Part shown: piece after piece, positions 12,958 to 31,598 of the stretch
How positions within the stretch are numbered: position 1 is the first letter of the stretch
How the letters are laid out: each line of letters opens with the position of its first letter
Assembly (NCBI GenBank): GCA_902796035.1
Contig: CADBNR010000005.1
Span: forward strand, 24,162 to 88,161
Length of the DNA: 64,000 bases
Direction of reading: 5' to 3'
Source: an uncultured Bacteroidales bacterium
GTDB taxonomy: Bacteria; Bacteroidota; Bacteroidia; Bacteroidales; Muribaculaceae
Notes under the pieces: generated by a model
Told to the model about the DNA's origin: nothing
Seen by the model: the letters and a program-made list of their open reading frames with translations, nothing else
Databases searched by the model: none
Made by a program: the position numbers and the translations under genes

Positions 12958-13038
12958 CAAATATGTTGCAAAACAATATTTTTGATAGATTATTATCAAT
13001 TATTACATTTGATACGCTCAAACATGCCTCTACACTCA

Positions 13039-13066
13039 GAGAGCGCGCCCTTTCGGACACGCTCTC
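13039..13066 (-). terminator. Hairpin at the end of the nuo-atp gene run
   Basis: GAGAGCG pairs with CGCTCTC around a 14-base loop, 45-72 bp past the nuoN stop. No T run follows on the minus strand, so it may act as a weak terminator or as a 3'-end stabiliser. Confidence 0.4.
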
Positions 13067-13110
13067 CGTATGAATGATTCGGCCGCATCCGCAGCCGTTT
13101 CCGTCACTTC

Positions 13111-14574
13111 TTACTGTCCCAGGCCGGGAATCAGTGCGGCATTGTAGCAGTATTCGTAGATGTAAGGCACGAGACCGAACAGTACGATACCGGCCACACA
13201 GATCCAGAGCGCGGCGCGCTCGCCCGTGTTGCTCTTGAACGCCTCCACCTTGGCCTCGCCGGGATTGATCCAGATGGCCTTTACCACCAGCAGATAGTAG
13301 TACAGAGAGATTATGGTGTTGATCAGCGCGATAAGCACCAGGATGTACAGCGGCATCGAACCCGTGGAGGTTGCCGACGTGAAGATCAGGAACTTCGAGA
13401 AGAATCCTGCGAACGGCGGAATACCTGCCAGCGAGAACATGGCCAGTGTCATTGCGAACGACAGCCAGGGGTTCGTCTTGTGCAGTCCGTCGTAATCGTC
13501 CATGCCGACCTTGCCGGTCTTGTTCTCTATGCTCGTGATCACGGCAAATGCACCGAGGTTGCTGACGATGTACACGAAGATGTAGTACATCATCGAACCC
13601 AGTCCGATTGTGGAGCTTGTCATGGCGCCCAGCATGATGTATCCTGCCTGCGAGATGGACGAGAAGGCCATGAATCGCTTCAGGTTCTTCTGACGGATGG
13701 CGAACAGGTTACCGACGGTGATCGTTGCGATGATCACTGCATACAGCATCCATTCCCAGCAGTCGGGATAGATCTGGCCGAATGCCTGGACAAAGATGAT
13801 GAAGAATGCGAATGCCGTGGCACCCTTGGAGATTACCGACAGATACGATGTGATGGCCGTGGGTGCACCCTGGTAAACATCCGCTGTCCAGAGATGGAAC
13901 GGAACAAGGCTCAGCTTGAAACCGATGCCGGCAATCATGAATGCCATGGCCACGATAAGCAGCCCGGACATCTGTCCGCTGGCGATGTTGGTGTAGATGT
14001 CGCTGTAATAGAGCGAACCGCCGGAGAAAGCATACACAAAGCTCAGGCCCATCAGCAGGATTGCCGACGAGAACACTGCCGTCAGTATATATTTTATGGC
14101 TGCCTCATCGCTCTCGTAGTGCTTCTTGTTGAATGCCACCAGTGCGGCCAGCGGCAGAGACGCTGCCTCCAGACCGATGACGAACAGAAGGAAGTGACGT
14201 GCCGAAATCATCAGGTACATGCCGAACAGCGTGACGAGCAGCAGCTCGTAGAACTCACCCTTGCGGATGGCTACTTCGTCGCTCTCAACCCAGTGGGCCG
14301 ACTGCAGCAGCACGATGAATACACCTATGTTCAGTATGGCCTTGATGGCCATGCTTGCGGTGTCGTTGACATACATGCCGCCGAACACCGATACCTCGCA
14401 CGACGGCAGCAGCCAGATCGCTATCGTCCCAAGACCGAACAACACCGTGGTCATGGGCGTCAGAAATTTCTTCGCGGAGCCGTCGCGACTGAACACGTCA
14501 GCCACAAACACCACAAGGAAAATGCCCAGTATTATTAACTCGGGGATCATTGCCCCAAATTGAGAATATCCCAT
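13111..14574 (-). CDS. nuoN: NADH-quinone oxidoreductase-type complex I subunit N
   Basis: Antiporter-like proton-channel subunit of respiratory complex I in the inner membrane; 487 residues, about 14 hydrophobic helices. The family signature is IGFKLSLVPFHLWTADVYQG followed by APTAITSYLSVISKGA, which contains the conserved helix-7/8 Lys region. It is the last gene of the 18-gene complex I/ATP synthase run, 27 bp after nuoM. Length matches NuoN rather than the longer NuoL. Confidence 0.95.
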   Translation of the reverse strand: MGYSQFGAMIPELIILGIFLVVFVADVFSRDGSAKKFLTPMTTVLFGLGTIAIWLLPSCEVSVFGGMYVNDTASMAIKAILNIGVFIVLLQSAHWVESDEVAIRKGEFYELLLVTLFGMYLMISARHFLLFVIGLEAASLPLAALVAFNKKHYESDEAAIKYILTAVFSSAILLMGLSFVYAFSGGSLYYSDIYTNIASGQMSGLLIVAMAFMIAGIGFKLSLVPFHLWTADVYQGAPTAITSYLSVISKGATAFAFFIIFVQAFGQIYPDCWEWMLYAVIIATITVGNLFAIRQKNLKRFMAFSSISQAGYIMLGAMTSSTIGLGSMMYYIFVYIVSNLGAFAVITSIENKTGKVGMDDYDGLHKTNPWLSFAMTLAMFSLAGIPPFAGFFSKFLIFTSATSTGSMPLYILVLIALINTIISLYYYLLVVKAIWINPGEAKVEAFKSNTGERAALWICVAGIVLFGLVPYIYEYCYNAALIPGLGQ

Positions 14575-14601
14575 TTTTTCGTTTCTTGTTGTTCTAATTG
14601 A

Positions 14602-16119
14602 TTAGATAGCCATCGCCAATGCATCGACGATTGGTTTGAAGCTATGCTGTATTGTCTCGCTAAGCCAGTTGGGGAAGAATCCGATACCGGCCAGACACGC
14701 TATCAGGGTCACCGTCGACAGACGCTCCCACCATGTGGCGTCGGTCAGGCTGAGATGATGCTCGTCCTGTACCGGACCGAGTATCAGCTTGCCCACCACG
14801 CGCAGGATGTAGACAGCCGTGATCACGATCGAGGTCGTGGCGGCAATCACGAAGATGCGGTGGAACATGTCGGCGTGCTCGAACGATCCGAAGAAGATGG
14901 TCATCTCGGCCACGAAGCCCGACATACCGGGAAGTCCTAAGGATGCGAAACCGGCAATCATGTAGCATACGCCGAGGTAAGGCATTATCTTCATCAGGCC
15001 GCCCATCTGGCGGATGTCACGTGTATGCGTACGTCCGTATATCATACCGATCAGGGCGAAGAACAGGGCCGTCATCAGACCGTGGCTAAGCATCTGCAGT
15101 ATTGCACCGGTCATTGCCGTGGTGTTGAGCATCAGCAGCGCGAACAGCACCATGCCGCAGTGCGACACCGACGAATATGCGTTGATATACTTGAGGTCGG
15201 TCTGGACGCAGGCCGAGAAGGCTCCGTACACGATGCTGATACCGGTAAGGATAATGAATATCCAGGCCAGCTCGTTGGCGGCGTGAGGCAGCAGGAAGAT
15301 GGCGATACGGAAGCATCCGTAACCACCGAGCTTCATCAGCACGCCTGCGTGAAGCATCGACACTGCCGTCGGGGCACATGCGTGACCGTCGGGACTCCAT
15401 GTATGGAACGGGAACATGGCGCCCAGAACGCCGAAGCCAACGAACGTGAACACGAACAGCAGGTTTTGCCAGCCATAGTCGATATTGCCGTAATGCGATA
15501 TCTCGAGTATGTTCCAGGTGTGGGGCATTCCTTCAGGAGTGCCGTGCCAGTAAATTCCGAGCAGACCGAGCATCAGGAAGGCCGAGCCTCCCATCAGCAT
15601 CAGCGTCAGCTTCATTGCCGAGTATTCCTTGCGACCCGTGCCCCATACGCCGATCAGCAGGTACATAGGAATCAGAGCCACCTCGTAGAACATGAACATG
15701 GTGAACATGTCTATCGAGATGAAGAATCCGTACACACCCGTAGACAGTAGCGAGTACCACAGGAAGAAGTTCTTGGGAAGCGGGTTGATCTTCCATGAAG
15801 CGAAGGTGCCCGCAAACACTATGATAGAGGTAAGCAGCAGCATCAGGACGGAGATACCGTCCACACCCACTGCCAGGTGAATGTTCAGTGGCTTATACCA
15901 CATCCATGAATCCATCCACAGCATTTCGGCCTGATTGCCTGCTGCCCGCTGTGCCAGGAAGTCGCACACCAGCCAGATGCTCATGCCAAGCAATACCGTA
16001 GAGCAGGTTACCATAACCCCGCGGATTGCCTTCATGTTGTTCTGACCGCACAATGCGAGTCCGGCCAGCATCAGGATCGGCACTACTACGAACCAGATTA
16101 AGATATTTCCGAAAAACAT
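14602..16119 (-). CDS. nuoM: Complex I subunit M
   Basis: Second antiporter-like membrane subunit of complex I; 505 residues, about 14 helices. Recognised from GFGVLGAMFPFHTWSPDGHA followed by CAPTAVSMLHAGVLMKLGGYG, and from the proton-channel Glu region MFYEVALIPMYLLIGVWG. It lies 26 bp after nuoL and 27 bp before nuoN. Nothing unusual in length. Confidence 0.95.
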   Translation of the reverse strand: MFFGNILIWFVVVPILMLAGLALCGQNNMKAIRGVMVTCSTVLLGMSIWLVCDFLAQRAAGNQAEMLWMDSWMWYKPLNIHLAVGVDGISVLMLLLTSIIVFAGTFASWKINPLPKNFFLWYSLLSTGVYGFFISIDMFTMFMFYEVALIPMYLLIGVWGTGRKEYSAMKLTLMLMGGSAFLMLGLLGIYWHGTPEGMPHTWNILEISHYGNIDYGWQNLLFVFTFVGFGVLGAMFPFHTWSPDGHACAPTAVSMLHAGVLMKLGGYGCFRIAIFLLPHAANELAWIFIILTGISIVYGAFSACVQTDLKYINAYSSVSHCGMVLFALLMLNTTAMTGAILQMLSHGLMTALFFALIGMIYGRTHTRDIRQMGGLMKIMPYLGVCYMIAGFASLGLPGMSGFVAEMTIFFGSFEHADMFHRIFVIAATTSIVITAVYILRVVGKLILGPVQDEHHLSLTDATWWERLSTVTLIACLAGIGFFPNWLSETIQHSFKPIVDALAMAI

Positions 16120-16145
16120 AATCTTTTATTGTTGTTATTGAGGGG

Positions 16146-18137
16146 TTAGATAAGACAGATCCATGTGATTACAGCCAGTACCAACGCTCCTGCAAAGTAC
16201 CACAGCACGTAAGCCTGGACATAACCGGACTGCATGCCTTTGATCTTTACGGAGAAGAAGTTGGTGACGTAAGCCAGCGCGTTCATCGTGCCGTCGATCA
16301 CGTGACGGTCGAACCATGCTATGCTGCGGCAGATGATGTTGAATATGATCTTATGCGTGACGAACTGATATATCTCGTCCCAGTAGAAGCGATGGTGAGC
16401 TGCCTTCCAGAGACCGGGCATCGCGTTCTTGAACTTCGCGGGCAGAGGATTCTTCTTGGCGTACATCACGGTTGCAAGGCCGATAGCCAGCAGAGCTATC
16501 ACTATCGAAGTCACGGCAACCGGAGTCTCCAAATGAATGTGGTAGGGCTCGCCGTTGTAGGTCACGAACTCTCCGAAGGGGATGAAACCCGCCACGCAGC
16601 TTACGGCTGCCAGGAATATCAGAGGCACCGACATCTGCCAGGGGGCGTCGTGCGGCTTGTGGCCTTCCTTCTTGTATTCGGGATTCTCCTCCCACCAGAA
16701 GATGAGGTAGTAGAGACGGAACATATAGAATGCGGTCAGACCTGCCACCATCGACATCCATGCACCCCAGAACCAGTGGTTGTTGTACATGGCTGCCAGC
16801 ATCTCGTCCTTGGAGAAGAAGCCCGAGAACGGAGGTATGCCTGCGATGGCAAGACAGCCTATCAGGAACGTCCAGTGTGTGATGGGCATATATTTGCGGA
16901 GTCCGCCCATCTTGGTGTAGTCGTTGCTATGAACGGCATGTATCAGTGCGCCGGCGCCAAGGAACAGGAGTGCCTTGAACATGGCGTGCGTGAACAGGTG
17001 GAACATCGAGGCCATATATCCGAGTCCGGAATAGTGAACTCCCTCTATGGGCTGGTTGTATGCCACGCCTAACGAAACCATCATGAACGCAATCTGCGAA
17101 ATGGTGGAGAAGGCCAACACGCGCTTGATGTCTATCTGCGTACATGCCACTACAGCTGCGTAGAATGCCGTGATGGCGCCCACTATCGTAATGAATGTGA
17201 GCGAATCGGGTACGATGCAGTACAGAGGGAAGAAACGTGCCACCAAGTATACGCCGGCCACGACCATCGTAGCGGCGTGAATCAGAGCCGATACAGGCGT
17301 CGGGCCCTCCATTGCGTCGGGCAGCCAGATGTGCAGGGGAAGCATGGCCGATTTACCCATACCGCCGACGAATATCAGCACCATGGCCCATGTCAGCACG
17401 GAACCGCTCATGAACGTAGCGCCTACCACTGTGTTTGCTATTACGCCTGCGTTGTTGTTCAGCATCTGGAAGTTGAACGCCGATGCGCTGCCGAGAGGTC
17501 CGTCGGCCGGTGCGTTCGATACATAGTAGCTCAGCACCAGGATACCGATCAGCATAAACAGGTCGGCGAAACGCGTCACGATGAATGCCTTCTTCGATGC
17601 CGATACGGCCGACGGCAGCTTATAGAAGAATCCGATCAGCAGATACGAGCTGACACCCACCAGCTCCCAGAATATATACATCTGGAATATGTTGGTGGCT
17701 ACCACCAGGCCTAACATCGAGAATGTGAACAGGGCCAGGAACGCATAGTAGCGCTGGAAACCCGGCTCGTGTTCCATATATCCCCAGCTGTAGAGGTGAA
17801 CCATGAACGAGATGGTGGTGATTACCACCAGCATCATGGCCGAGATGGGATCCAGCAGGAAGCCGATGTTCACCACCATACGGTCGGTAAACGCCAGCCA
17901 GGTCACGTCGAACATCTGACACTGCTGTCTTACTCCGTCATCTATGAACAGCGAATCACCGCTGAAGAAATATGTGAATGCAACGTAATAACTGATCACT
18001 GCCACAGCCCCCAAAGCCGTGATGCCAAGTATGCCCGCAAGCTTGCGCGACATCTTTACGCCACCGATGCCCAGCAACAGGAACATGAACAGCGGTATGG
18101 CAAGAATTAATATCGGTAGTGTAACGCTCATGATCAA
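16146..18137 (-). CDS. nuoL: Complex I subunit L
   Basis: The distal antiporter-like subunit of complex I, with the long lateral helix; 663 residues. Diagnostic core: GGMGKSAMLPLHIWLPDAME followed by GPTPVSALIHAATMVVAGVYL. FWELVGVSSYLLIGF holds the conserved Glu, and PPFSGFFSKDEML is also present. The C-terminal roughly 150 residues, including the KNPLPAKFKNAMPG stretch, correspond to the extra helices found only in NuoL. The start codon overlaps the nuoK stop by 4 bp, so the two are translationally coupled. Confidence 0.95.
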   Translation of the reverse strand: MIMSVTLPILILAIPLFMFLLLGIGGVKMSRKLAGILGITALGAVAVISYYVAFTYFFSGDSLFIDDGVRQQCQMFDVTWLAFTDRMVVNIGFLLDPISAMMLVVITTISFMVHLYSWGYMEHEPGFQRYYAFLALFTFSMLGLVVATNIFQMYIFWELVGVSSYLLIGFFYKLPSAVSASKKAFIVTRFADLFMLIGILVLSYYVSNAPADGPLGSASAFNFQMLNNNAGVIANTVVGATFMSGSVLTWAMVLIFVGGMGKSAMLPLHIWLPDAMEGPTPVSALIHAATMVVAGVYLVARFFPLYCIVPDSLTFITIVGAITAFYAAVVACTQIDIKRVLAFSTISQIAFMMVSLGVAYNQPIEGVHYSGLGYMASMFHLFTHAMFKALLFLGAGALIHAVHSNDYTKMGGLRKYMPITHWTFLIGCLAIAGIPPFSGFFSKDEMLAAMYNNHWFWGAWMSMVAGLTAFYMFRLYYLIFWWEENPEYKKEGHKPHDAPWQMSVPLIFLAAVSCVAGFIPFGEFVTYNGEPYHIHLETPVAVTSIVIALLAIGLATVMYAKKNPLPAKFKNAMPGLWKAAHHRFYWDEIYQFVTHKIIFNIICRSIAWFDRHVIDGTMNALAYVTNFFSVKIKGMQSGYVQAYVLWYFAGALVLAVITWICLI

Positions 18138-18445
18138 TACTTCATTTTATCTACCTCGTCAATCTCCGTGCTGTGGAGCTTGCGGTAAATGTTCACGATT
18201 ATCGCAATCGCAATGGCTGTCTCGGCGGCCGCAATGGCTATGGCGAACAGGGTAAACACCATGCCCTCCATCGAACCGGGATACAGGAAACGATTGAAAA
18301 TCACAAAATTCAGGTCTGCCGAATTGAGCATCAGCTCCAACGATATCAGCAACGCTATCATATTTTTGCGTGTCACGAATCCGTACACGCCGGCCACGAA
18401 CATTATAACGCTCGGAACCAAATACCATAACATATTCAAATCCAT
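18134..18445 (-). CDS. nuoK: Complex I subunit K
   Basis: Small three-helix membrane subunit of complex I (103 residues, the usual size). Conserved features are the first-helix region YGFVTRKNMIALLISLELML, containing the functionally important Glu, and VFTLFAIAIAAAETAIAIAI, containing the second Glu. It sits 5 bp after nuoJ and overlaps nuoL by 4 bp. Confidence 0.95.
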   Translation of the reverse strand: MDLNMLWYLVPSVIMFVAGVYGFVTRKNMIALLISLELMLNSADLNFVIFNRFLYPGSMEGMVFTLFAIAIAAAETAIAIAIIVNIYRKLHSTEIDEVDKMKY

Positions 18446-18450
18446 CGCGC

Positions 18451-18978
18451 TTAACGTTTACGGGCAACTGTTACGCCGCCGATTATACATGCCAACAACA
18501 GTATCGATATTGCCTCGAACGGCAACAGATACTGGAACTTCTCGGTGCCCGTGAAGGCCTTGCCTATCTCTTTCATGCTGATTGTCGCGCTGCCGTCCAG
18601 ACAGGACATCAGATTCGCCTCATGGGACAACGGCATATACAGCAGTGCCAGCACCAGCAGGATGCCTCCCAACACCGATACCGTCGCGCCGATGGCACGG
18701 CGGTGGTTGCGCAGATATGCCACCTCCTCGTCAGGCCGGTGCGTCAGATGGATCGCGAACACAAACAGCACCATGATGCCGCCCGCGTATACAGCGATCT
18801 GCACCGCGCCCAGGAACTGATACCCTAACTGGAAATAGAATATCGAGGTTCCGATCAGCACGAAAAGCAGATATGTGGCCGCACGCAATATCTTGCGCGT
18901 CATCACAGTTGCTACCGAAAAGATAACCACTATCAGGGCCACAACGAAATATAAAATTATATTCGCTACTGAATCCAT
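18451..18978 (-). CDS. nuoJ: Complex I subunit J
   Basis: Membrane subunit of complex I, five predicted helices, 175 residues. Recognised from TYLLFVLIGTSIFYFQLGYQ followed by FLGAVQIAVYAGGIMVLFVFAI, which contains the pi-bulge helix region of NuoJ. It lies between nuoI (40 bp gap) and nuoK (5 bp gap). Confidence 0.94.
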   Translation of the reverse strand: MDSVANIILYFVVALIVVIFSVATVMTRKILRAATYLLFVLIGTSIFYFQLGYQFLGAVQIAVYAGGIMVLFVFAIHLTHRPDEEVAYLRNHRRAIGATVSVLGGILLVLALLYMPLSHEANLMSCLDGSATISMKEIGKAFTGTEKFQYLLPFEAISILLLACIIGGVTVARKR

Positions 18979-19018
18979 TATATTGTTATTGTTTCTTAAT
19001 TAAGTGTTATGCGGAAGG

Positions 19019-19570
19019 TCATGCTTTGGCCTCAGGCTGAGCCGGTGCTTCGGGCTTTGGAGCCTCTGCAGGCTTAGCGGGGGCTGCCGGCTTGGGCGCT
19101 GGTGCCGGATCCTCCGGCTCGGGACGGTAATTAAGCTGTTTCACAAGTTTGTCGCGCTCGAACACCGCCTGCTCGAAATCATTGCTGAATTCCAGGGCGT
19201 TCTGCGGACAGCTCGTGACGCACAGCATACAGAACGTGCAGCTGCCAAGGTCGTACAGGTACTTGTCCAGCTTGCGCTTCTTCTTGCCGTCGGGCAGTTC
19301 CACCATTTTTGTGTCCAGATGAATGGTCCCGTTCGGGCAATTCATCTGGCAGATGCCACACGCTATGCACTTGTGGCGTCCCTCCGAATCGTATATCAGC
19401 GTAAGTTCCGCACGGAACCGGTCGCTGATCTTCAGGTCCTGTCGGTTCTCCGGATACTGCTCAGTGATCTTCGGCGTCACGAACTCTTTGCCCGTAACGG
19501 CCATTCCCGTCACCAGACTTTTCAGTCCCGTACCGACCTCCTTAAAGTATTCTAATATATTGGCCATCAA
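19019..19570 (-). CDS. nuoI: Complex I subunit I (two 4Fe-4S clusters), with Pro/Ala-rich C-terminal tail
   Basis: Electron-transferring ferredoxin-like subunit that carries clusters N6a and N6b between the peripheral arm and NuoB; 183 residues. Both ligand sets are intact: CIACGICQMNCP and CTFCMLCVTSCP. Residues about 150-183 are a low-complexity Pro/Ala/Lys/Glu tail (PAPAPKPAAPAKPAEAPKPE) not found in the minimal family. The gene is the first complex I gene after the embedded ATP synthase genes, starting 42 bp past atpG. I found no convincing promoter in that 42-bp gap, so co-transcription with atp genes is likely. Confidence 0.95.
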   Translation of the reverse strand: MMANILEYFKEVGTGLKSLVTGMAVTGKEFVTPKITEQYPENRQDLKISDRFRAELTLIYDSEGRHKCIACGICQMNCPNGTIHLDTKMVELPDGKKKRKLDKYLYDLGSCTFCMLCVTSCPQNALEFSNDFEQAVFERDKLVKQLNYRPEPEDPAPAPKPAAPAKPAEAPKPEAPAQPEAKA

Positions 19571-19612
19571 ATATTGATTTTTCTCTCTCGGTTAGTTTTC
19601 AAATAAGGTTGT

Positions 19613-20488
19613 TCATCGTTCCACCTGGCCTCCCAGCAGGTCAAGCAATTCGGCGGTGATGCTCTGCTGGCGCAGCTTGTTGTACTCCAGCTGGAGTTCG
19701 TCGCGCAGCTTCTGGGCGTTGTCGTTGGCCGTCTGCATGGCCATCACGCGCGCCGCCTGTTCGCTGGCCCGGTTCTCGATAGTGATCTCCTGCATGGTCG
19801 ACTGTACGAACATCGGCAGCACCTCGTTGAAGATGCTGTTGGGATCCGGCTCGAAAATGTACAGCTGATTCTCGTCTGCCTCAATCCCGTCAATCAGCGA
19901 CGCCTGCTCCACCGGGAACAGCCGGTCTGCGGTCAGCGTCTGCTTGCTCATCGACTTATACTTCATGTAGATCACGTCCACACGATCCACCGTGCCCTTG
20001 ACAAAACGGTCGCGCAGATCCTCGGTGAACTCCGTCACCTTCGGGCCGGCCATCTTCGAATCCACACCTTCGGGGATTTCCACCTTCACGCCATCGAGCT
20101 TCGACACGGCGCGGGCTATCTTCTGCCCTACCGGTATCACGGTGATTGTGGCACCGGGACAGTCGCGGCGCAACTTGTCCAGCTCGATCAGAAGTCCCTT
20201 GAAGATATTGATATTGTACGCGCCGCACAGACCGTCGTCCGAACCATACACCACCACGGCCGCATTCATCACCTCGCGACTCTCAATCAGAGGCGATTCG
20301 AAATTCTCCTGCGCCCCCAGTATATGACCCATGATCTCCGTCAGCTTGGCGCGGAACGGCTTCAGCTGCTTCAGCTGCATCTCGTTCTGATGCGCCTTGG
20401 CCGACGATATCATCTTCATCGCTCCGGTTATCTTCTCCGTCGATGATACCGACCCAATGCGGTTCTTTAGTTCTCTTAACGTTGCCAT
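19613..20488 (-). CDS. atpG: F1 ATP synthase gamma subunit
   Basis: Central rotor shaft of F1; 291 residues, normal length. N-terminal signature: MATLRELKNRIGSVSSTEKI followed by TGAMKMISSAK. C-terminal signature: LRQQSITAELLDLLGG. Both form the coiled-coil that turns inside the alpha3beta3 ring. It is the last of eight contiguous atp genes, 19 bp after atpA and 42 bp before nuoI. Confidence 0.96.
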   Translation of the reverse strand: MATLRELKNRIGSVSSTEKITGAMKMISSAKAHQNEMQLKQLKPFRAKLTEIMGHILGAQENFESPLIESREVMNAAVVVYGSDDGLCGAYNINIFKGLLIELDKLRRDCPGATITVIPVGQKIARAVSKLDGVKVEIPEGVDSKMAGPKVTEFTEDLRDRFVKGTVDRVDVIYMKYKSMSKQTLTADRLFPVEQASLIDGIEADENQLYIFEPDPNSIFNEVLPMFVQSTMQEITIENRASEQAARVMAMQTANDNAQKLRDELQLEYNKLRQQSITAELLDLLGGQVER

Positions 20489-20507
20489 GCGGTATGACTC
20501 CTCTTAT

Positions 20508-22091
<1,584 letters not shown>

Positions 22092-22092
22092 G

Positions 22093-22641
22093 TTAATTGT
22101 TACCTGTTAAGAGGTTTTGTCGTAATTGTTGCAGTTCTCCGCTGATCGAGGCGTCCATGCGGGTAGAATCCACATCAATCACAAACCCTCCGATCACTTC
22201 CGGATCCACCTTGTGTTCGTATTCGAACTTTGACTTAGGGAATGATTTCTCCACCACGTCGTGCAGACGCTTCATCTCGGTGTCGGGAATCTCAACCGCC
22301 GTCACTATCCGGACCTGCGATATGTTGTTCTCTTTGCGATATATGTCGCGATATGCCAGCGCCATGAGCTGGAAGAATTCTTCCCGCTTATGGTCCAGCA
22401 CCAGTTGTACGAACCTGTCGAACGGGCTGTCGGGCTTAGCCTGGCACAGTCCGTCCAGAACCTTGCGCTTGTCCTCGCCCTTCACATAGGGATTGGACAT
22501 CGTTTTCTGCAGGTCTTTGTTATCTGAGTATGCGGCCAGCACTGTCTTCATCGCCTCGTAGATCGGCTGCTGAGAGCCGGTCTCCCGGGCGTATTTGTAC
22601 AGCGCCATGGCATAACGGTGGGGTATCAGTCCGGAAATCAT
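22093..22641 (-). CDS. atpH: F1 ATP synthase delta subunit
   Basis: Stator subunit that ties F1 to the b-subunit dimer; 182 residues. The N-terminal helical domain has [15 protein letters not shown]. The C-terminal part contains [20 protein letters not shown] and [20 protein letters not shown], the expected final strand/helix of the family. It is 4 bp after atpF and one base before atpA. Confidence 0.93.
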
Positions 22642-22645
22642 GGTT

Positions 22646-23140
22646 TTAGTTCTTCTCGATATCGTCCAGCATCTTGTTCACCAGCTCGGTCTGAGCCTTG
22701 GTGTCCTTAAGCTGCGAACGCATCATTTTTTCAGCAATTTCTATTGAGAATCTGCTCACCTCGTCACGAATCTGGGACTCGGCCTGCTTCCGCGCCTGCT
22801 CTATCGAGACCTTCGCGGCATCCATCTCGCCCTGGGCCACCTTGGCCGCCTCGTTGCGTGCCTGCTCTATGATTTCGGTCTTCATCTTCTGAGCGTCACG
22901 CAGCATCTCCTGCTGCTTGGCCATCACCTCCTTCATATAGCGATCCGCCTCGGCGCGCGCGTTGTCCAGCTGCTCCTTGGCCTGACGGGCGTTCTCCACT
23001 CCTTCGTCTATGGTGCTCGCCCGCTTGTCCATCATCTTGATTATCACCGGCCAACCCCATTTTGCCAATACCAGGAACAACAGGATGAACGCTACGAACA
23101 TCCAGAAAACCAGGCCAAAATCAGGCGTAAATAATTCCAT
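22646..23140 (-). CDS. atpF: F0 ATP synthase b subunit
   Basis: Peripheral stalk subunit; 164 residues. One N-terminal membrane helix (GLVFWMFVAFILLFLVLAKW) is followed by a long charged coiled coil with MDKRASTIDEGVENARQAKE. Normal length and order. It follows atpE by 80 bp, the widest gap within the atp block, in which I see no coding frame or promoter match. Confidence 0.95.
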   Translation of the reverse strand: MELFTPDFGLVFWMFVAFILLFLVLAKWGWPVIIKMMDKRASTIDEGVENARQAKEQLDNARAEADRYMKEVMAKQQEMLRDAQKMKTEIIEQARNEAAKVAQGEMDAAKVSIEQARKQAESQIRDEVSRFSIEIAEKMMRSQLKDTKAQTELVNKMLDDIEKN

Positions 23141-23220
23141 ATCTTATTTGTTTAGGGTTGCGAGAATGCGCGTGCCGTCGCCTTATGCCGCGACGACACG
23201 CGGATTATACAGTTCGATTC

Positions 23221-23502
<282 letters not shown>

Positions 23503-23528
23503 TTATTTGTTTTTTATTATTTATCTTT

Positions 23529-24905
23529 TTATATCTTTACGCTGTCTATTTTCTCCGCTTCTTTATGAAGCAAGGATTCCTCGGCTGTCTTGGCCTCGCC
23601 GTGCTCGCCTTTCTCCTGCGCCATCGCTATGAACAGCGTGGACAGCAGCGTGAACACGTATGCCTGGATGAAACTTACAAGCACGTCCAGCGCCAGCATG
23701 AACACCGAGAACAATATCGAAATCACCGCCGCGCTTCCCGCCACCGCCGCGCCGAACGACGCGAAGATGAATATGAGCAGTGTCAGCGTTATCACAATCA
23801 TGTGGCCTCCCATCATGTTCGCGAACAGACGGACTGCCAAGGCGGCCGGCTTGGTGAAGATTCCGAATATCTCTATGAACTGCATTATGGGCAGCGGACA
23901 CTTAAGCCAGATGGGCACATCCGGCCACAGTATCTCTTTCCAATAATGTTTCGTGCCTAATACGTTGGTCAGCACGAACGTGCACACCGCAAGTACCAGT
24001 GTCACTGCGATGTTGCCGGTCAGGTTGGCACCACCCGGGAACACCACTATCAGGCCTAACAGGTTCATAGTCAGAATAAAGAAGAACACCGTCAGCAGGT
24101 ACGGGGCGAATTTACGGGAATTCTCGCCTAAGGTCGGCTTGATGTTGTCGTAGTAAATGAAGCTGACCAGCAGCTCTATGAATCCCATTCCCTTGCGCGG
24201 AGCCTTCATGTCGGGATGACGGCGGTAGAAGCCCACCAGTCCCAACACCATGGCTATCACGACGAGAACGGAGATAAACAATGCCATCACGTCCTTAGTG
24301 ATCGACAGGTCAAGAGGCCGGTATTCCTTGTAATACTCTCCGGCCACCTTATGAGCGGCTGCCGCATCGGCGTCGGGCACGTAGACATAACCGTCGATGA
24401 CGGGCATGCCCTCGTCCACCACATCGCCTTCCTTATGCTTGGCCAGTTCGGCATCCACTTTCTTCCGGTCTTCGGGCGACAGATCGAATATCTCCACCAC
24501 CTTGTCCTTGTGCGTACTGATCTGAGCCAGCACGAAACGGTACTGCTTGCCGTCGCGCTCACATGTCTTCACCACGGGCACCATCTGCTTGTGCTCTTTG
24601 TCGGTGGCGGGATCCTTGACCTCGACGGACTTGGTCAGGTCCGCGCTCGAGAAGCAGAACCAGCTGTGGTCCTCCGCACGCACTATCACAGGCAGCGGCA
24701 TACGCATGGTATGCGAGAAGGGAACCTCCCAGCCATACCCGTCGCCGAGATGCTCGAAGATTAGCTCCTTCACGTCCATCTTCTCCTCGTTCTGTTCCTC
24801 CTTCTGCAGCTCCGACGACACTTTCTCCGAGTCATCCTTCGAGCATCCGGGGACCATAACGACTGTCAGGACCGCCAGTAACAATATGTAGATGCGTTTT
24901 AACAT
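23529..24905 (-). CDS. atpB: F0 ATP synthase a subunit with exported, lipoprotein-like N-terminal domain
   Basis: Stator subunit forming the proton half-channels; 458 residues, far longer than the usual 240-290. The canonical a-subunit fold occupies about residues 205-430 and includes the essential Arg region TKPAALAVRLFANMMGGHMI and the last-helix FIQAYVFTLLSTLFIAM. Ahead of it is a roughly 200-residue extra domain that begins with a signal sequence and a lipobox-like VMVPGCSK (Cys21), followed by Glu/Lys-rich and beta-rich sequence. The extension would lie on the periplasmic side (inference). Extended a subunits are known in Bacteroidetes, but the role of the extra domain is not. It lies 36 bp after atpC and 38 bp before atpE. 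Confidence 0.93.
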   Translation of the reverse strand: MLKRIYILLLAVLTVVMVPGCSKDDSEKVSSELQKEEQNEEKMDVKELIFEHLGDGYGWEVPFSHTMRMPLPVIVRAEDHSWFCFSSADLTKSVEVKDPATDKEHKQMVPVVKTCERDGKQYRFVLAQISTHKDKVVEIFDLSPEDRKKVDAELAKHKEGDVVDEGMPVIDGYVYVPDADAAAAHKVAGEYYKEYRPLDLSITKDVMALFISVLVVIAMVLGLVGFYRRHPDMKAPRKGMGFIELLVSFIYYDNIKPTLGENSRKFAPYLLTVFFFILTMNLLGLIVVFPGGANLTGNIAVTLVLAVCTFVLTNVLGTKHYWKEILWPDVPIWLKCPLPIMQFIEIFGIFTKPAALAVRLFANMMGGHMIVITLTLLIFIFASFGAAVAGSAAVISILFSVFMLALDVLVSFIQAYVFTLLSTLFIAMAQEKGEHGEAKTAEESLLHKEAEKIDSVKI

Positions 24906-24941
24906 ATCTTTCTTTATATTCCGGTCTCTGGGATTATCCTA

Positions 24942-25178
24942 TCAATAGGCCAAAACCGAGATTTTATTATCGTTCACATCCGCCAGACCGCCGTTGATGG
25001 GCATGTCGCCGCTCTCACCGTCGGGCTTGACATAATGCACCGTTCCCCTCACCAGCACCGATATGATCGGGGCGTGGTTCTTAAGCACGGTGAACGATCC
25101 GAGCTGACCGGGCAACGTCACCATCGTGACCTCGCCGCTGTAGCTCACTTCGTGTGCGGATATAATTTCAAGGTTCAT
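24942..25178 (-). CDS. atpC: F1 ATP synthase epsilon subunit, beta-domain only
   Basis: Rotor subunit linking gamma to the c ring; only 78 residues against about 130-140 in most bacteria. The N-terminal beta-sandwich is intact (LEIISAHEVSYSGEVTMVTL, LGSFTVLKNHAPIISVL, INGGLADVNDNKISVLA). The C-terminal two-helix domain, which inhibits ATP hydrolysis in other species, is missing, and the stop codon follows directly after the last strand. Short epsilon subunits occur in other Bacteroidetes, so this is probably natural and not a frameshift. It is 7 bp after atpD. Confidence 0.93.
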   Translation of the reverse strand: MNLEIISAHEVSYSGEVTMVTLPGQLGSFTVLKNHAPIISVLVRGTVHYVKPDGESGDMPINGGLADVNDNKISVLAY

Positions 25179-25185
25179 GGCTCGA

Positions 25186-26700
<1,515 letters not shown>

Positions 26701-26716
26701 TTATTTTCAGTTAGTA

Positions 26717-27796
26717 TTAGAAGTGCCACCCTAATGCTACGAACACCGTCATCAGCAAAAGGTTTGCCAGCGCGAACGGCATCAGGTATTTCCACTCGAA
26801 CGACAGCAGCTGGTCGATACGCACACGGGGGAACGTCCACTTGAACCAGATGATGACGAACGAGATGAAGAATGCCTTGCCCAGGAACCACACCACGCTC
26901 GGGATATAGTCCATCACCATGTTGAAGCCGTCCCAGCCGGGAATGTGCAGAGGCATCCAGCCGCCTAAGAACATCAGCGAGGCGATGCCCGACACGATGA
27001 ACAGGTTCAGATACTCGGCCAGATAGAAGAAGCCGAAGTGGATACCCGAATACTCCGTGTGGTAACCGGCTGTAAGCTCATGCTCGGCCTCGGGAAGGTC
27101 GAACGGGCCGCGGTTGGTCTCGGCCGTAGCAGCCACGATATATATCAGGAATGCTATGATGGCGGGGATGTGTCCCTTGAACAGGAACCATGCGTCCTCC
27201 TGAGCCCATACAAGCTCGTTTATGTTCATGGTGCCGGACAGTACGATGATGGTCATTATGGCCAGACCCAACGACACCTCGTAGCTTATCATCTGCGCGC
27301 CGCTTCGCATGGCGCCGATCAGCGTGTATTTGTTATTCGATGCCCAACCGGCCAGCAGGATACCCAATACACCCACCGAACTGACCGCCAGCACGAAGAA
27401 GATGCCTATGTTCCAGTCTATAATCTGCAGACCGTTGCCCCACGGCAGACACGCCAGCATTATCACCGACGACGTGATGACCAGGTAGGGCGCGAGCTTG
27501 AACAGGAATCGGTCGGTGCCTTTCAGACATATCAGCTCCTTGATCAGGATCTTGAACATGTCGGCGAACACCTGCAGAAGTCCCCACGGACCTACACGCA
27601 TCGGGCCCAGTCGGCACTGGAACCATGCGCACAGCTTGCGCTCGTACAATATATAGAACAGGGCCAGCACAGTGTATGCCAGCAGAACGATCACTCCGAC
27701 AATGACACACTCTATAAGGACGGCCAGCCAGTCGGCCATGCCCGTCCCCAACAGCCAGTCATTGAAGCACGATGTCCATTTCCCAAAATCAAACAT
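26717..27796 (-). CDS. nuoH: Complex I subunit H
   Basis: Membrane subunit that forms most of the quinone-access channel; 359 residues, about eight helices. Signature regions: CRLGPMRVGPWGLLQVFADM, GPFDLPEAEHELTAGYHTEY and GIHFGFFYLAEYLNLFIVSG (acidic loop residues at the quinone cavity). It follows nuoCD by 39 bp and is followed, 28 bp later, by atpD instead of nuoI. Confidence 0.95.
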   Translation of the reverse strand: MFDFGKWTSCFNDWLLGTGMADWLAVLIECVIVGVIVLLAYTVLALFYILYERKLCAWFQCRLGPMRVGPWGLLQVFADMFKILIKELICLKGTDRFLFKLAPYLVITSSVIMLACLPWGNGLQIIDWNIGIFFVLAVSSVGVLGILLAGWASNNKYTLIGAMRSGAQMISYEVSLGLAIMTIIVLSGTMNINELVWAQEDAWFLFKGHIPAIIAFLIYIVAATAETNRGPFDLPEAEHELTAGYHTEYSGIHFGFFYLAEYLNLFIVSGIASLMFLGGWMPLHIPGWDGFNMVMDYIPSVVWFLGKAFFISFVIIWFKWTFPRVRIDQLLSFEWKYLMPFALANLLLMTVFVALGWHF

Positions 27797-27835
27797 ATCT
27801 TGTTATTGTTGTTTTATGCGTGGTTTATATCACTG

Positions 27836-29461
27836 TTAACGGTCAATATCGGGGATCACGAAGTCCAGGGCGGCGCCGATCGTGATCAGGTCCGCGATCA
27901 TATAGCCTGTACAAGTCAGGTCCATCACACCCACCAGGTTGAAGCATGGGCTCTGGAAGTGTACGCGGTAGGGATTCTTCGATCCGTCACTCTCGATGTA
28001 CACTCCGAACGCGCCGCGCGATGCCTCCACCTGCTGGTACCAGTGGCCCACAGGCAGCTTGATCAGCTTCGGAACCTGAGCGCGGATGTCGCCCTCGGGA
28101 ATATTGTCCACTAACTGGGCCAGTATCTTGCAGCTCTCCTCTATCTCCTTCATGCGCACCATGTAGCGGCTGTACGAGTCGCAGCCGTCCAGCAGCACCT
28201 CGTCGAAATCCAGCTCCGAATATATACCGTACGGATGCTTCTTGCGCGTGTCGTTGCTCCAGCCCGATCCGCGTCCGCTCGGTCCGGTGATGGCGTAGTT
28301 GATGGCGTCCTCTTTCGAAAGCTTGCCCACTCCCACCAGACGGTTCTTGGCTATAAGGTTGTTGGAGAATACGTTGTGATATTCCTTCAGACGCTTGGGC
28401 ATGATGGCAATCAGCTCCTTCACATCCTTCTGGAAGTCTGGGTGCAGGTCGGCGATGACGCCGCCTATCACATTATAGTTCATCGACATGCGTGCGCCGC
28501 AGGTCTTCTCGAATATGTCGAGTATCATTTCGCGTTCACGGAATCCGTAGAAGAACGCCGTGGTGGCGCCTAAGTCCATTGCCGTACATCCGAACGACAG
28601 CAGATGGGACGAAATACGCATCAGCTCGTCCATCATGCAACGTATCACCTCGGCGCGGCGCGGTACCTCGATGCCTAAGGCCTTTTCTATACACATGCAC
28701 AGACAGTGGCGGTTCATGTGGGCCGACATATAGTCCATACGGTCGGTGAAGTGCAGGGTCTGCGGATAGGTCATGCCCTCCGACAGCTTCTCGATGCCTC
28801 GGTGAATATAACCGGACACCACATCCACCTTCTTCACATACTCGCCGTCGAGCGACGTGCGGAAACGCATCACACCGTGCGTGGAAGGGTGTTGCGGACC
28901 GATGTTAACCACATAGTCGTCCTTCTCGAACACGCGGCCATATTCAGGCTTAAGTTCGCCGTTCACCAGCTTGTAGCTCACGGTCTGGTCCTCGTTCTCC
29001 TCGTCCTCCATGCGGATAGGATTCAGTTCGGGATTTGCGTCATAGTCTTTGCGCAGGGGGTGTCCCACCCAGTCGTTGCGCAGGAAGAAACGGCGCATGT
29101 CGGGATGGTTCACGAACTTGATGCCGAACATGTCGTACACCTCGCGCTCCTGGAAATTAGCAACCTTCCACAAGTCGCTTACAGTATGTATATAGCTGTT
29201 GTCGCGGTCGCCCGATGCCTCCACCTTCACCGACAGCATCTCCCAGTCACGGGAAGTAGCGGTCAGATAGTACATCACGCCTAATTTCTCCTTCCAGTCC
29301 ATACCCACTACGGCTGTCAGGACATCGAAACCGAAATCTTCCTTCAGTTTTTTTGCGAAGTCATGCCAATCCGGCTCCGCTACATTCACCTGCAGGCACT
29401 CTCCATCCTCGAATGTGGCCGCAGGATAAATTTTCTCTATCTTTTCTTTTAATTGGCTCAT
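27836..29461 (-). CDS. nuoCD: Complex I subunits C and D, fused
   Basis: Peripheral-arm subunits of complex I in one 541-residue chain. The NuoC part spans about 1-150 (YLTATSRDWEMLSVKVEASG, FQEREVYDMFGIKFVNHPDM). A roughly 25-residue linker follows, then NuoD at about 178-541 (VNIGPQHPSTHGVMRF, VSGYIHRGIEKLSEGMTYPQ, C-terminal TIGAALDFVIPDIDR). NuoD contributes the quinone-binding His/Tyr region. Fusion of C and D is known in several lineages including Bacteroidetes. It is 6 bp after nuoB. Confidence 0.96.
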   Translation of the reverse strand: MSQLKEKIEKIYPAATFEDGECLQVNVAEPDWHDFAKKLKEDFGFDVLTAVVGMDWKEKLGVMYYLTATSRDWEMLSVKVEASGDRDNSYIHTVSDLWKVANFQEREVYDMFGIKFVNHPDMRRFFLRNDWVGHPLRKDYDANPELNPIRMEDEENEDQTVSYKLVNGELKPEYGRVFEKDDYVVNIGPQHPSTHGVMRFRTSLDGEYVKKVDVVSGYIHRGIEKLSEGMTYPQTLHFTDRMDYMSAHMNRHCLCMCIEKALGIEVPRRAEVIRCMMDELMRISSHLLSFGCTAMDLGATTAFFYGFREREMILDIFEKTCGARMSMNYNVIGGVIADLHPDFQKDVKELIAIMPKRLKEYHNVFSNNLIAKNRLVGVGKLSKEDAINYAITGPSGRGSGWSNDTRKKHPYGIYSELDFDEVLLDGCDSYSRYMVRMKEIEESCKILAQLVDNIPEGDIRAQVPKLIKLPVGHWYQQVEASRGAFGVYIESDGSKNPYRVHFQSPCFNLVGVMDLTCTGYMIADLITIGAALDFVIPDIDR

Positions 29462-29467
29462 ATCCGT

Positions 29468-30082
29468 TTATCCTATCTGCCCCTTTTCGTCGGGATGTTG
29501 TGCGAAAAAGTCCTCTATTTTCTCCTTGCGGTTGGCTCCGCCGAAGAATTTCTGCACCTTGATTTTGCGCTGCAGCTGCATCAGACCGTAGAACATGGCC
29601 TCGGGACGCGGAGGACAACCGGGGATGTACACGTCCACAGGCAGAATCTGGTCCACGCCGGGCACCACGCAGTATGAGTTCTTGAACGGGCCGCCCGAAA
29701 CGGCGCAGCCACCGCATGCTATCACATATTTGGGTTCGGCCAGCTGCTCGTACAGACGGCGCAGCGCCGGCGCCATACGGTGTACGATGGTGCCCTGCAC
29801 CATTATATAGTCGGCCTGACGGGGCGAGTTTCGGGCCACCTCGAATCCGAATCGTGCCATATCATAGCGCGCCGCGCCCAGACACATGAACTCGATGGCG
29901 CAGCACGACGTGCCGAAGCACAGCGGCCACAAAGAATTGGCACGACCCCAGTTGATCAGGTCGTCGAATGCCCCCACCATTACGTTTGCTCCTGTAGCGT
30001 TCAGCTCCTCGACCAACTTGTCTATGTAATCGTTGTTCTTGAAGTCCTCGCGCTTCATGCTTTTAATATGGTCTACTCCCAT
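29468..30082 (-). CDS. nuoB: Complex I subunit B
   Basis: Carries cluster N2, the terminal electron donor to quinone; 204 residues. Ligand cysteines are all present: the tandem pair in [10 protein letters not shown], one in [10 protein letters not shown] and one in [11 protein letters not shown]. The given start overlaps the end of nuoA by 10 bp. An internal Met nine codons in ([10 protein letters not shown]) is an alternative start. Second gene of the run. Confidence 0.95.
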
Positions 30083-30444
30083 TTCAGCGCACCTTTACGC
30101 CAGGCGTATGCCAGGCCCATTATCAATACAAACATGAATATGCCGATGCAAAGTATTCCCGAAGGACCCATATCCTTCATCACCACGGACCAGGGATACA
30201 GGAACACCACCTCCACATCGAACAATAAAAACAAAATGGCGAAGATATAGTATCCCGCCTTAAACTGTAGCATAGACGCGCCTCGCGTCGGTATGCCGCA
30301 CTCGTATGCCTCCGCCTTCTTCACCGAATATGAACGAGGCGATATCAATTTGGCAATAAGCAGCGCCGCAAACACCAGGGCAAGACCAGTTATCATGGCC
30401 GTGATGCTCAACACTCCATTACCGATATGGCACAATAACTCCAT
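30073..30444 (-). CDS. nuoA: Complex I subunit A
   Basis: Three-helix membrane subunit at the junction of the two complex I arms; 123 residues. Recognised from the conserved loop [12 protein letters not shown] and from [20 protein letters not shown]. First gene of the 18-gene run, with a full-consensus promoter about 75 bp upstream (30517-30548). No NuoE, NuoF or NuoG genes occur in the run. The electron donor is therefore probably not NADH through the usual module; ferredoxin or another donor is an inference from similar 11-subunit enzymes. Confidence 0.95.
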
Positions 30445-30516: not shown

Positions 30517-30548
30517 CAAAGTTACCCAAAATTTTTCACTCTGACAAA
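30517..30548 (-). promoter_or_regulatory. Promoter of the nuo-atp gene run
   Basis: On the minus strand TTTG (30545-30548), exactly 20 bp, then TAACTTTG (30517-30524) matches the -33/-7 consensus fully. The -33 box lies within the T-rich tail of the terminator of the preceding lipoprotein gene. Confidence 0.85.
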
Positions 30549-30585
30549 TAAAAAAGCCGCTGTTCCGTCTTGGGCAGCGGCTTTT
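30549..30585 (-). terminator. Terminator of the lipoprotein gene
   Basis: A strong 11-bp stem, AAAAGCCGCTG paired with CAGCGGCTTTT, is followed by Ts on the minus strand. It sits 60 bp past the lipoprotein stop codon and directly abuts the nuoA promoter. A T-rich tract on the plus strand makes it bidirectional in principle. Confidence 0.85.
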
Positions 30586-30644
30586 AATTACATCTATGAC
30601 GCGTCACGGGACCGTTGCCCGCGCGCTCCACGCTTCGGCGTGTC

Positions 30645-31598
30645 TCACTGCTTCACATCCGACATGTTGAACCCGATCAGGCACATTCCCTGGAACGATA
30701 CCACATATCCGTTGTCGAGCATAATACGGCATGTTGCCTGTGTCAGGTCGGGCGACGAGCTGTTCATTATCAGCTTATCGACTTTGATGGCCGGTGCTTT
30801 GGCTCCATCCTTCTCCAGAATGGCCTCAGGCGTAACGTCGCTGCATTCCAGCGTGTAGCCGAGCGCTCCGAACTTCACAGGCACGCCCTTCAACACGTAG
30901 TTATAAGTGTTGTCAGCGTTCAGATAAGATACATTGTACAGGAATACATCGGCCTTGTAGTCGCCGGCCTTCTCCAGATTCATCATCACGCGTATCGAAG
31001 GCGTCTTGGTCTCTATCGGCGCACTCATACCTGTTCCCCCGACACTTGTATTGCCGGTGAAGATCATATCCTTCCAGAACGTGCGCACTTGATAGTCACC
31101 AAGCTTGAACTGTGTCTCGCAATATACGCGCGTGCTCGGATATTGTATAGGATTCAGCTTGATCTGCGCGGCCAACAGGTTGATGATCGAATCGTTGAAG
31201 GTGTTGGAGCAGGTGGTGAAGTCGGCAAATACGTTGGTTATATTGGCGCCACCCTCTTGGCTGGCGTCGGCGGCCTCGCCCAGGAAGAACTGTGACAGGT
31301 TCTTGCATCCCTGCATACGTATCCGACCCATGATCATAGGTATTTCCTTGGTGCTGAAGCTCTTCACCGAACCACCTATGTTCAGGTCGTTGCTCATCAT
31401 CATCATCTTGAAATTATAGTTGTCGGTCACGAACGTATAATTGTTCAATGAAACCGACGGCTCCACGTCGCTTCCTGTCACCAGCGAATATGTCTCTACC
31501 TTGAATGTAGAGGTCGATGTGAATGAATTTTCATTCTTATTGCACGAGGCTGCTCCCACCAGGAACAACGCGCAGCCAATCATGGTGATTTTCTTCAT
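30645..31598 (-). CDS. Putative outer-surface or periplasmic lipoprotein, 317 aa, unknown function
   Basis: I do not recognise the family. The N-terminus is a lipoprotein signal (MKKITMIGCALFLVGAASCN) with a lipobox VGAASC and the lipidated Cys at 19. The mature part is beta-rich with no obvious catalytic motif and reads like a Bacteroidales hypothetical lipoprotein of about 300 residues. It follows the RNase Z gene by 59 bp and is closed by the terminator at 30549-30585, so it is probably the last gene of the cluster that begins at 39476. A structural or ligand-binding role is possible but not shown. Confidence 0.75.
   Translation of the reverse strand: MKKITMIGCALFLVGAASCNKNENSFTSTSTFKVETYSLVTGSDVEPSVSLNNYTFVTDNYNFKMMMMSNDLNIGGSVKSFSTKEIPMIMGRIRMQGCKNLSQFFLGEAADASQEGGANITNVFADFTTCSNTFNDSIINLLAAQIKLNPIQYPSTRVYCETQFKLGDYQVRTFWKDMIFTGNTSVGGTGMSAPIETKTPSIRVMMNLEKAGDYKADVFLYNVSYLNADNTYNYVLKGVPVKFGALGYTLECSDVTPEAILEKDGAKAPAIKVDKLIMNSSSPDLTQATCRIMLDNGYVVSFQGMCLIGFNMSDVKQ

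Follow-up and report, generated by a model that had tools for sequence, protein, structure and literature searches.

An ATP synthase gene block embedded in the complex I operon of Muribaculaceae and other Bacteroidales families

We analyzed a 64,000-nucleotide stretch of DNA (the window; positions 24,162 to 88,161 of contig CADBNR010000005.1, GenBank assembly GCA_902796035.1) from an uncultured bacterium of the family Muribaculaceae, order Bacteroidales, whose 2.2-Mb genome assembly comprises 76 contigs and is 92% complete. On the minus strand between positions 13111 and 30444, the genes of an ATP synthase lie inside the operon for respiratory complex I, in the order nuoA-B-CD-H, atpD-C-B-E-F-H-A-G, nuoI-J-K-L-M-N. 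This is very likely a long-established, clade-typical nuo-atp operon that arose by insertion of the atp genes in an ancestor of at least seven Bacteroidales families, Muribaculaceae included. The embedded arrangement, i.e., an atp block between nuoH and nuoI, is already known in Muribaculaceae since 2016 (PMC4936053). Added here are its spread over at least seven families and a history of the atp genes separate from that of the nuo genes around them.

All 18 open reading frames (ORFs) are intact. ORF calls and Pfam searches placed each of them where the initial annotation had, in the same order, and the measured junction gaps of 28 bp (nuoH/atpD) and 42 bp (atpG/nuoI) agreed with it as well. 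Pfam backs the subunit name of every ORF, in the case of NuoI through generic 4Fe-4S models and position only. The locus holds the complete set of eight bacterial F1Fo ATP synthase subunits, together with NuoA, B, C, D and H to N (C and D fused), which make up an 11-subunit headless complex I. Elsewhere in the source genome there is no second match to Complex1_49kDa; ATP-synt_ab matched atpA, atpD and, more weakly, one further gene on contig C64, a putative Rho.

Ormerod et al. (2016, PMC4936053) described 26 genomes of 'Ca. Homeothermaceae' (S24-7, now Muribaculaceae) whose complex I locus contains an F-type ATP synthase (for this and the other papers cited, statements concern the parts covered). 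That locus is like ours in having an 11-subunit complex I without NuoEFG and an ATP synthase inside, and the family is very probably the same. Gene order, promoter, wider family spread and atp phylogeny do not figure in the parts of that paper covered, supplements aside. The paper names Barnesiella and Coprobacter as the closest characterised relatives of S24-7, and reports that the H5 genome lacks complex I and ATP synthase together (PMC4936053). Some of the further families that carry the embedded order may correspond to these two genera. Neither the seven-family spread nor the separate atp history was found in the open-access literature, partly among the matches listed; besides PMC4936053, the papers there were, by title and abstract, judged to be background or without relation to the subject.

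The headless type 1 NADH dehydrogenase (NDH-1) of Bacteroides fragilis has the same subunit set as the window, without NuoEFG, but its genes carry ten consecutive locus tags (BF638R_0841-0850), leaving no room for atp genes inside (PMC7002350). This supports the contrast that the initial annotation had drawn with the contiguous nuo genes of Bacteroides. Prevotella headless NDH-1 also shares the NuoEFG-less subunit set (PMC6560451). A minor Bacteroidetes unit ordered beta-epsilon-a-c-b-delta-alpha-gamma corresponds to the D-C-B-E-F-H-A-G order of the window; it is reported as an atp unit for Bacteroides and Prevotella, in a text where the word nuo does not occur in the parts covered (PMC5709465).

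Within the family, conservation is nearly complete. Among the 80 nearest named NuoH loci (77-100% identity; titled Muribaculaceae or Muribaculum in 33 cases, Porphyromonadaceae in 27, Bacteroidales in 10, Bacteroides sp. in 8 and otherwise in 2), atpD directly follows nuoH in 78, and the other two (L022 and L041) end at a contig edge at most about 110 bp past nuoH. The titles other than Muribaculaceae and Muribaculum are mostly older or coarser names, and we take the set to point to Muribaculaceae. atpG and nuoI were detected in that order in 64 of the 80, the remaining loci being shorter stretches, and in 76 of 92 when 12 additional loci were included. A same-family search gave a match in 289 of 297 genomes, including all 205 of good quality; the eight genomes without a match are all less than 90% complete. 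At least 54 family genomes, among the matches listed, show one match running across nuoH-atpD. The nuoH/atpD gap of embedded loci has a median of 52 bp and a maximum of 143 (n = 91), and the atpG/nuoI gap a median of 43 bp and a maximum of 244 (n = 77), with one value of -113 that probably reflects a wrong start codon.

The window is part of a 76-contig draft, which raises the question of an assembly or binning artefact. We consider the chance of this negligible: identical junctions occur in dozens of independent assemblies and in the single-contig genomes G189 (one match across nuoH-atpD), G540 and G572 (G-, L- and f-numbers are the genome, locus and family codes of our sample). Mis-assembly was ruled out because the order recurs in this way, and the arrangement can be read as real. 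One locus speaks against uniform conservation: in G027 (G027:C11, L158, 12400-19901), a 100-N gap and then unrelated genes come after nuoI, and nuoJ-N were not found in the stretch. Either faulty scaffolding or a true interruption may explain this.

The initial annotation had suggested comparing the nuoH-nuoI interval across Bacteroidales, and this comparison confined the mixed order to certain families. In an order sample of 89 genomes, about one per family, nuoH adjoins atpD in seven genomes (G000, G033, G320, G326, G356, G363 and G382) from six families. Both NuoH-like and AtpD matches are listed for another 24, on different contigs or far apart, and universal Bacteroidales ancestry of the mixed order was rejected on this ground; for the last 58, at most one of the two is among the matches listed. 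A search of a wider set, 393 genomes at E 1e-52, gave matches in 48, and atpG adjoins nuoI in 34 of them (six from f1, three from f80, and five each from f18, f24, f54, f61 and f102). The other 14 comprise four with both matches apart and ten with one match, among the matches listed. In f102, nuoH also adjoins atpD in all five genomes. Loci fetched from f18, f24, f54, f61, f80 and f102 have the gene order of the window (nuoA lies outside the stretch of L119, and nuoN runs to the stretch end in L121). The embedded order thus appears common to at least seven families (f1, f18, f24, f54, f61, f80 and f102). Across the phylum, no nuoH-atpD adjacency was present among the matches listed for 70 genomes.

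Two other arrangements were seen in these samples. In family f126 of the same phylum (G709, G721, G725, G741 and G752), nuoH on the plus strand and atpD on the minus strand share a contig, separated by about 10-14 kb; the nuo and atp operons look like convergent neighbours, and operon proximity may recur. In genome G013 (f2), a contig-edge AtpD fragment (L138, G013:C25) has 78% identity and no nuoH was found with it, and AtpG, on another contig, has only 32%, possibly reflecting mixed atp origins or contamination.

Phylogenetic trees separate the history of the atp genes from that of the operon that houses them. The embedded loci form one clade with 100/100 support in each of the Nuo concatenate, RpoBC and SecA trees (G382 of f80, without an RpoB match, is missing from the RpoBC tree). 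The atp concatenate joins this clade with family f99, with support of 100/100 and a Shimodaira-Hasegawa-like approximate likelihood ratio test (SH-aLRT) value of 100 under a mixture model. The same grouping was recovered with bootstrap values of 95-100 in single trees of six subunits, AtpD, AtpA, AtpG, AtpB, AtpH and AtpF. It was rejected in approximately unbiased (AU) tests by RpoBC (p = 3.3e-5), Nuo (p = 1.7e-4) and SecA (p = 2.8e-8). Taken separately, nuoA-H (AU p = 0.0036) and nuoI-N (p = 0.0021) also rejected it. As both nuo halves give the same result, the atp block is a stranger inside a uniform operon; the possibility that nuoI-N had been imported together with atp was rejected, since the two halves place alike. 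For the atp data, a tree that groups the embedded clade with f20, f53, f16, f83 and f26 and keeps f99 out is worse by 639 log-likelihood units (set without f80).

In the outgroup nuo loci that we fetched, nuoH and nuoI are neighbours. This adjacency, the concordance of the nuo halves and the differing atp placement argue for the initial proposal that a preformed atp block was inserted into a nuo operon. We infer from the sequence comparisons a single old insertion, in which a ready-made atpDCBEFHAG unit, without the atpI-like gene of several related operons, would have entered a native nuo operon between its nuoH and nuoI genes. The inserted DNA was probably exchanged horizontally. For the fuller scenario we see about an even chance: a horizontally exchanged ATP synthase would have displaced a native, atpI-containing one and been captured in the complex I operon in the ancestor of the seven families, pump and turbine then forming a single heritable module, together since and losable as a unit. 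With its differing atp tree, the locus offers a case, open to test, in which a core enzyme of energy metabolism would have been replaced and connected to a different operon.

Several points weigh against this history. Four of the six single-subunit atp trees fail to recover the embedded clade apart from f99, although they do not reject it, and any transfer could have run in either direction. The trees include 21-28 taxa and use LG+G4, with the mixture model for Atp alone, and RpoBC and SecA are single-locus markers. RpoBC also rejects the embedded clade together with f20, f53, f16, f83 and f26 (p = 3.9e-4), since its tree sets f3_G014 next to the embedded clade (92/79), and the respiratory genes conflict with RpoBC at more than one place, in several outgroups. 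G014 (f3; L131 and L132) has highly divergent nuo and atp genes, the latter in the order B-E-F-H-A-G-D-C.

The atp genes might instead have been inherited vertically with a change of rate only, the f99 grouping being a tree artefact. AtpG identity forms a continuum (43-46% for f99, 40-41% for f26 and f53), and the conflict between Nuo and RpoBC seen elsewhere, e.g., at f3_G014, would fit as well. However, the six single-subunit trees are concordant, separating f99 from the embedded clade in favor of f20, f53, f16, f83 and f26 carries the 639-unit cost, RpoBC, SecA and Nuo each reject embedded plus f99, and the lack of an atpI-like ORF is common to f99 and the window. Vertical inheritance is in our judgment rather doubtful. 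Ancient hidden paralogy, with f99 and the seven families keeping one of two ancestral atp operons and their relatives the other, would account for the atp tree without transfer, but needs several losses. In the source genome, which this check covered, only the atpA and atpD of the locus and one weaker ATP-synt_ab match were found, and we regard this explanation as distinctly improbable.

The region between atpC and atpB bears on the proposed transfer. An ORF of 124-142 residues occupies it in f20, f26, f83, f16 and f4. No atpI-like ORF was found there in three f99 loci, the window or f9, and the f53 gap holds a short frame only; the atpC/atpB gap of embedded loci measures 15 bp in the median and 702 bp at most. 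Absence of the ORF is shared by f99 and the window, yet it is not a clean character. The three f99 genomes (G402, G685 and G570) belong to one genus and count as one case. They resemble the window in having the closest atp genes by tree, in the same order, and no atpI-like ORF, but their nuo and atp genes form separate operons and their nuo genes group elsewhere. The two operons are convergent in G402 and G685, with nuoH and atpD about 23 kb and 45 kb apart, respectively; in G402 atpG ends at 32822 and nuoN near 44236, so that the facing operons leave a gap of about 11 kb, against about 33 kb in G685. In G570 they are on different contigs. This proximity may be a relic or a precursor of joining, or chance.

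Bacteroidales promoters follow the pattern TTTG-N17-23-TAnnTTTG, which differs from the sigma-70 type; a sigma-70 scan was set aside for this reason. The pattern scan of the window found a match at 30517-30548, where the initial annotation had proposed a promoter ahead of nuoA, and no strict pattern at either nuo-atp junction, also as it had stated, in a scan of low sensitivity. On the minus strand between 12500 and 31700, the only other strict match lies beyond nuoN (12957-12926). The latter precedes a glycogen debranching enzyme gene (10878-12830), and another pattern is present on the plus strand at 12981.

Among embedded loci, the strict motif precedes nuoA by 200 nt or less in 48 of 87 and was found at none of the 17 internal junctions (n = 74-92 each; n = 12 for nuoL/nuoM and nuoM/nuoN). 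A looser upstream box raised the count to 61 of 87 ahead of nuoA; it occurred at atpG/nuoI in none of 77 loci, and in a single locus at each of nuoA/nuoB, nuoK/nuoL and nuoM/nuoN. The 18 genes would most likely be transcribed from the 30517-30548 promoter as one unit of about 17.4 kb. Alternatively, the atp block could keep a non-consensus promoter of its own, and nuoI-N perhaps another, giving two or three transcripts whose positions are incidental. The looser pattern does occur ahead of atpD in 2 of 91 loci, and junctions reach 143 bp (nuoH/atpD) and 244 bp (atpG/nuoI) in some relatives, whereas those of the window are short and unstructured, and the gene order is conserved through seven families. 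The TAnnTTTG box alone, within 200 nt, precedes nuoA in 82 of 87 loci versus 3 of 91 at nuoH/atpD and 1 of 77 at atpG/nuoI. We therefore hold separate promoters to be unlikely.

Two counts tell against a reading of these motifs as evidence for a single promoter. The TAnnTTTG box alone also precedes nuoB in 34 of 90 loci, where the scanned stretch lies largely within nuoA, and in control genes, within 300 nt, the strict motif was present at 0 of 14 atpD outside the clade and 3 of 11 contiguous nuoA, so that a promoter of the atp block could be overlooked. Because scan sensitivity is low in these controls, absence of the motif at the junctions is only mildly informative; its presence ahead of nuoA is informative. 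That one transcript sets the pump-to-synthase stoichiometry is speculation, and subunit ratios within ATP synthase already require translational control.

Table 1 Features of the nuo-atp locus and its flanks (positions in the window)
Feature	Position	Strand	Evidence or remark
Hairpin and U-tract, intrinsic-terminator-like, divides upstream gene from operon	30552..30585	-	fold 30550-30600: -18.3 kcal/mol, z -3.7
Bacteroidales-type promoter pattern TTTG-N20-TAACTTTG, ahead of nuoA	30517..30548	-	pattern scan
nuoA	30073..30444	-	PF00507, E 1.4e-33
nuoB	29468..30082	-	PF01058, E 2.7e-29
nuoCD (fused)	27836..29461	-	PF00329 + PF00346
nuoH	26717..27796	-	PF00146, E 7e-117
nuoH/atpD junction, 28 bp	26689..26716	-	no hairpin, no promoter pattern in window
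atpD (beta)	25186..26688	-	PF00006
atpC (epsilon, 78 aa, beta-sandwich domain only)	24942..25178	-	PF02823
atpB (subunit a, N-terminal extension of ~200 residues)	23529..24905	-	PF00119 at residues 212-426; alignment
atpE (c ring; E-G motif, read as proton type)	23221..23490	-	PF00137; alignment
atpF (b)	22646..23140	-	PF00430
atpH (delta)	22093..22641	-	PF00213
atpA (alpha)	20508..22091	-	PF00006, PF00306
atpG (gamma)	19613..20488	-	PF00231
atpG/nuoI junction, 42 bp	19571..19612	-	no stable hairpin, no promoter pattern in window
nuoI (two 4Fe-4S motifs)	19019..19570	-	PF12838 + other 4Fe-4S models
nuoJ	18451..18978	-	PF00499
nuoK	18134..18445	-	PF00420
nuoL	16146..18137	-	PF00361, PF00662
nuoM	14602..16119	-	PF00361
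nuoN	13111..14574	-	PF00361
Strong hairpin past nuoN, no U-tract, possible transcript end	13037..13069	-	fold 13030-13110: -44.5 kcal/mol, z -6.8

The hairpin ahead of the operon is missing from the output of the pattern scan that included the sigma-70 type, and an Rfam scan of 9000-33000 gave nothing above gathering thresholds. Upstream of the hairpin lies a co-directional gene for a 317-aa protein (30645-31598) with no Pfam match, which is near nuoA in only some relatives.

The complex I of this locus is of the headless type. No NuoEFG genes are present in the operon, and a genome-wide search, which covered the NuoF C-terminal domain (PF10589) and not NuoE and NuoG separately, found none in the 92%-complete source genome; as a control, the search gave matches in 7 of 14 genomes. 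The headless Nuo of B. fragilis makes no contribution to NADH oxidation, and its deletion caused no significant difference in colonisation (PMC7002350). A Desulfitobacterium enzyme of this kind has been proposed to accept electrons from ferredoxin or hydrogenase (PMC11238625), and in Prevotella a proton gradient for ATP synthase has been proposed, partly derived from the Na+ gradient of Nqr (PMC6560451). The 11-subunit complex of the window would feed the quinone pool, probably from ferredoxin-like donors, and the proton gradient that it builds would drive a proton-type F1Fo ATP synthase. Placing pump and consumer on one transcript fits these ferredoxin and proton-gradient ideas, and the two may benefit from co-expression. 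In bacteria that are abundant in the mammalian gut, the arrangement links one particular ATP synthase to a headless complex I, and their co-inheritance fits a complex I that makes the gradient used by the ATP synthase, alongside the Na+-pumping Nqr.

All 24 aligned rows of the c subunit have G directly after the carboxylate. Na+-type c subunits usually have S or T in that position, and we read this c subunit as proton type from its sequence. The lysine of transmembrane helix 7 (TM7) in NuoM, which we take to have a functional role, is replaced by Leu in 21 and by Phe in 1 of 22 Bacteroidales rows, the position being set by alignment to the 7p61 chain (FAVK); NuoL and NuoN keep their lysine in the rows shown. 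One of the three antiporter-like channels may work differently in headless complex I. Subunit a, with 458 aa, is the longest among eight aligned rows (405-439 aa in other family loci), and its N-terminal extension has a signal-like start.

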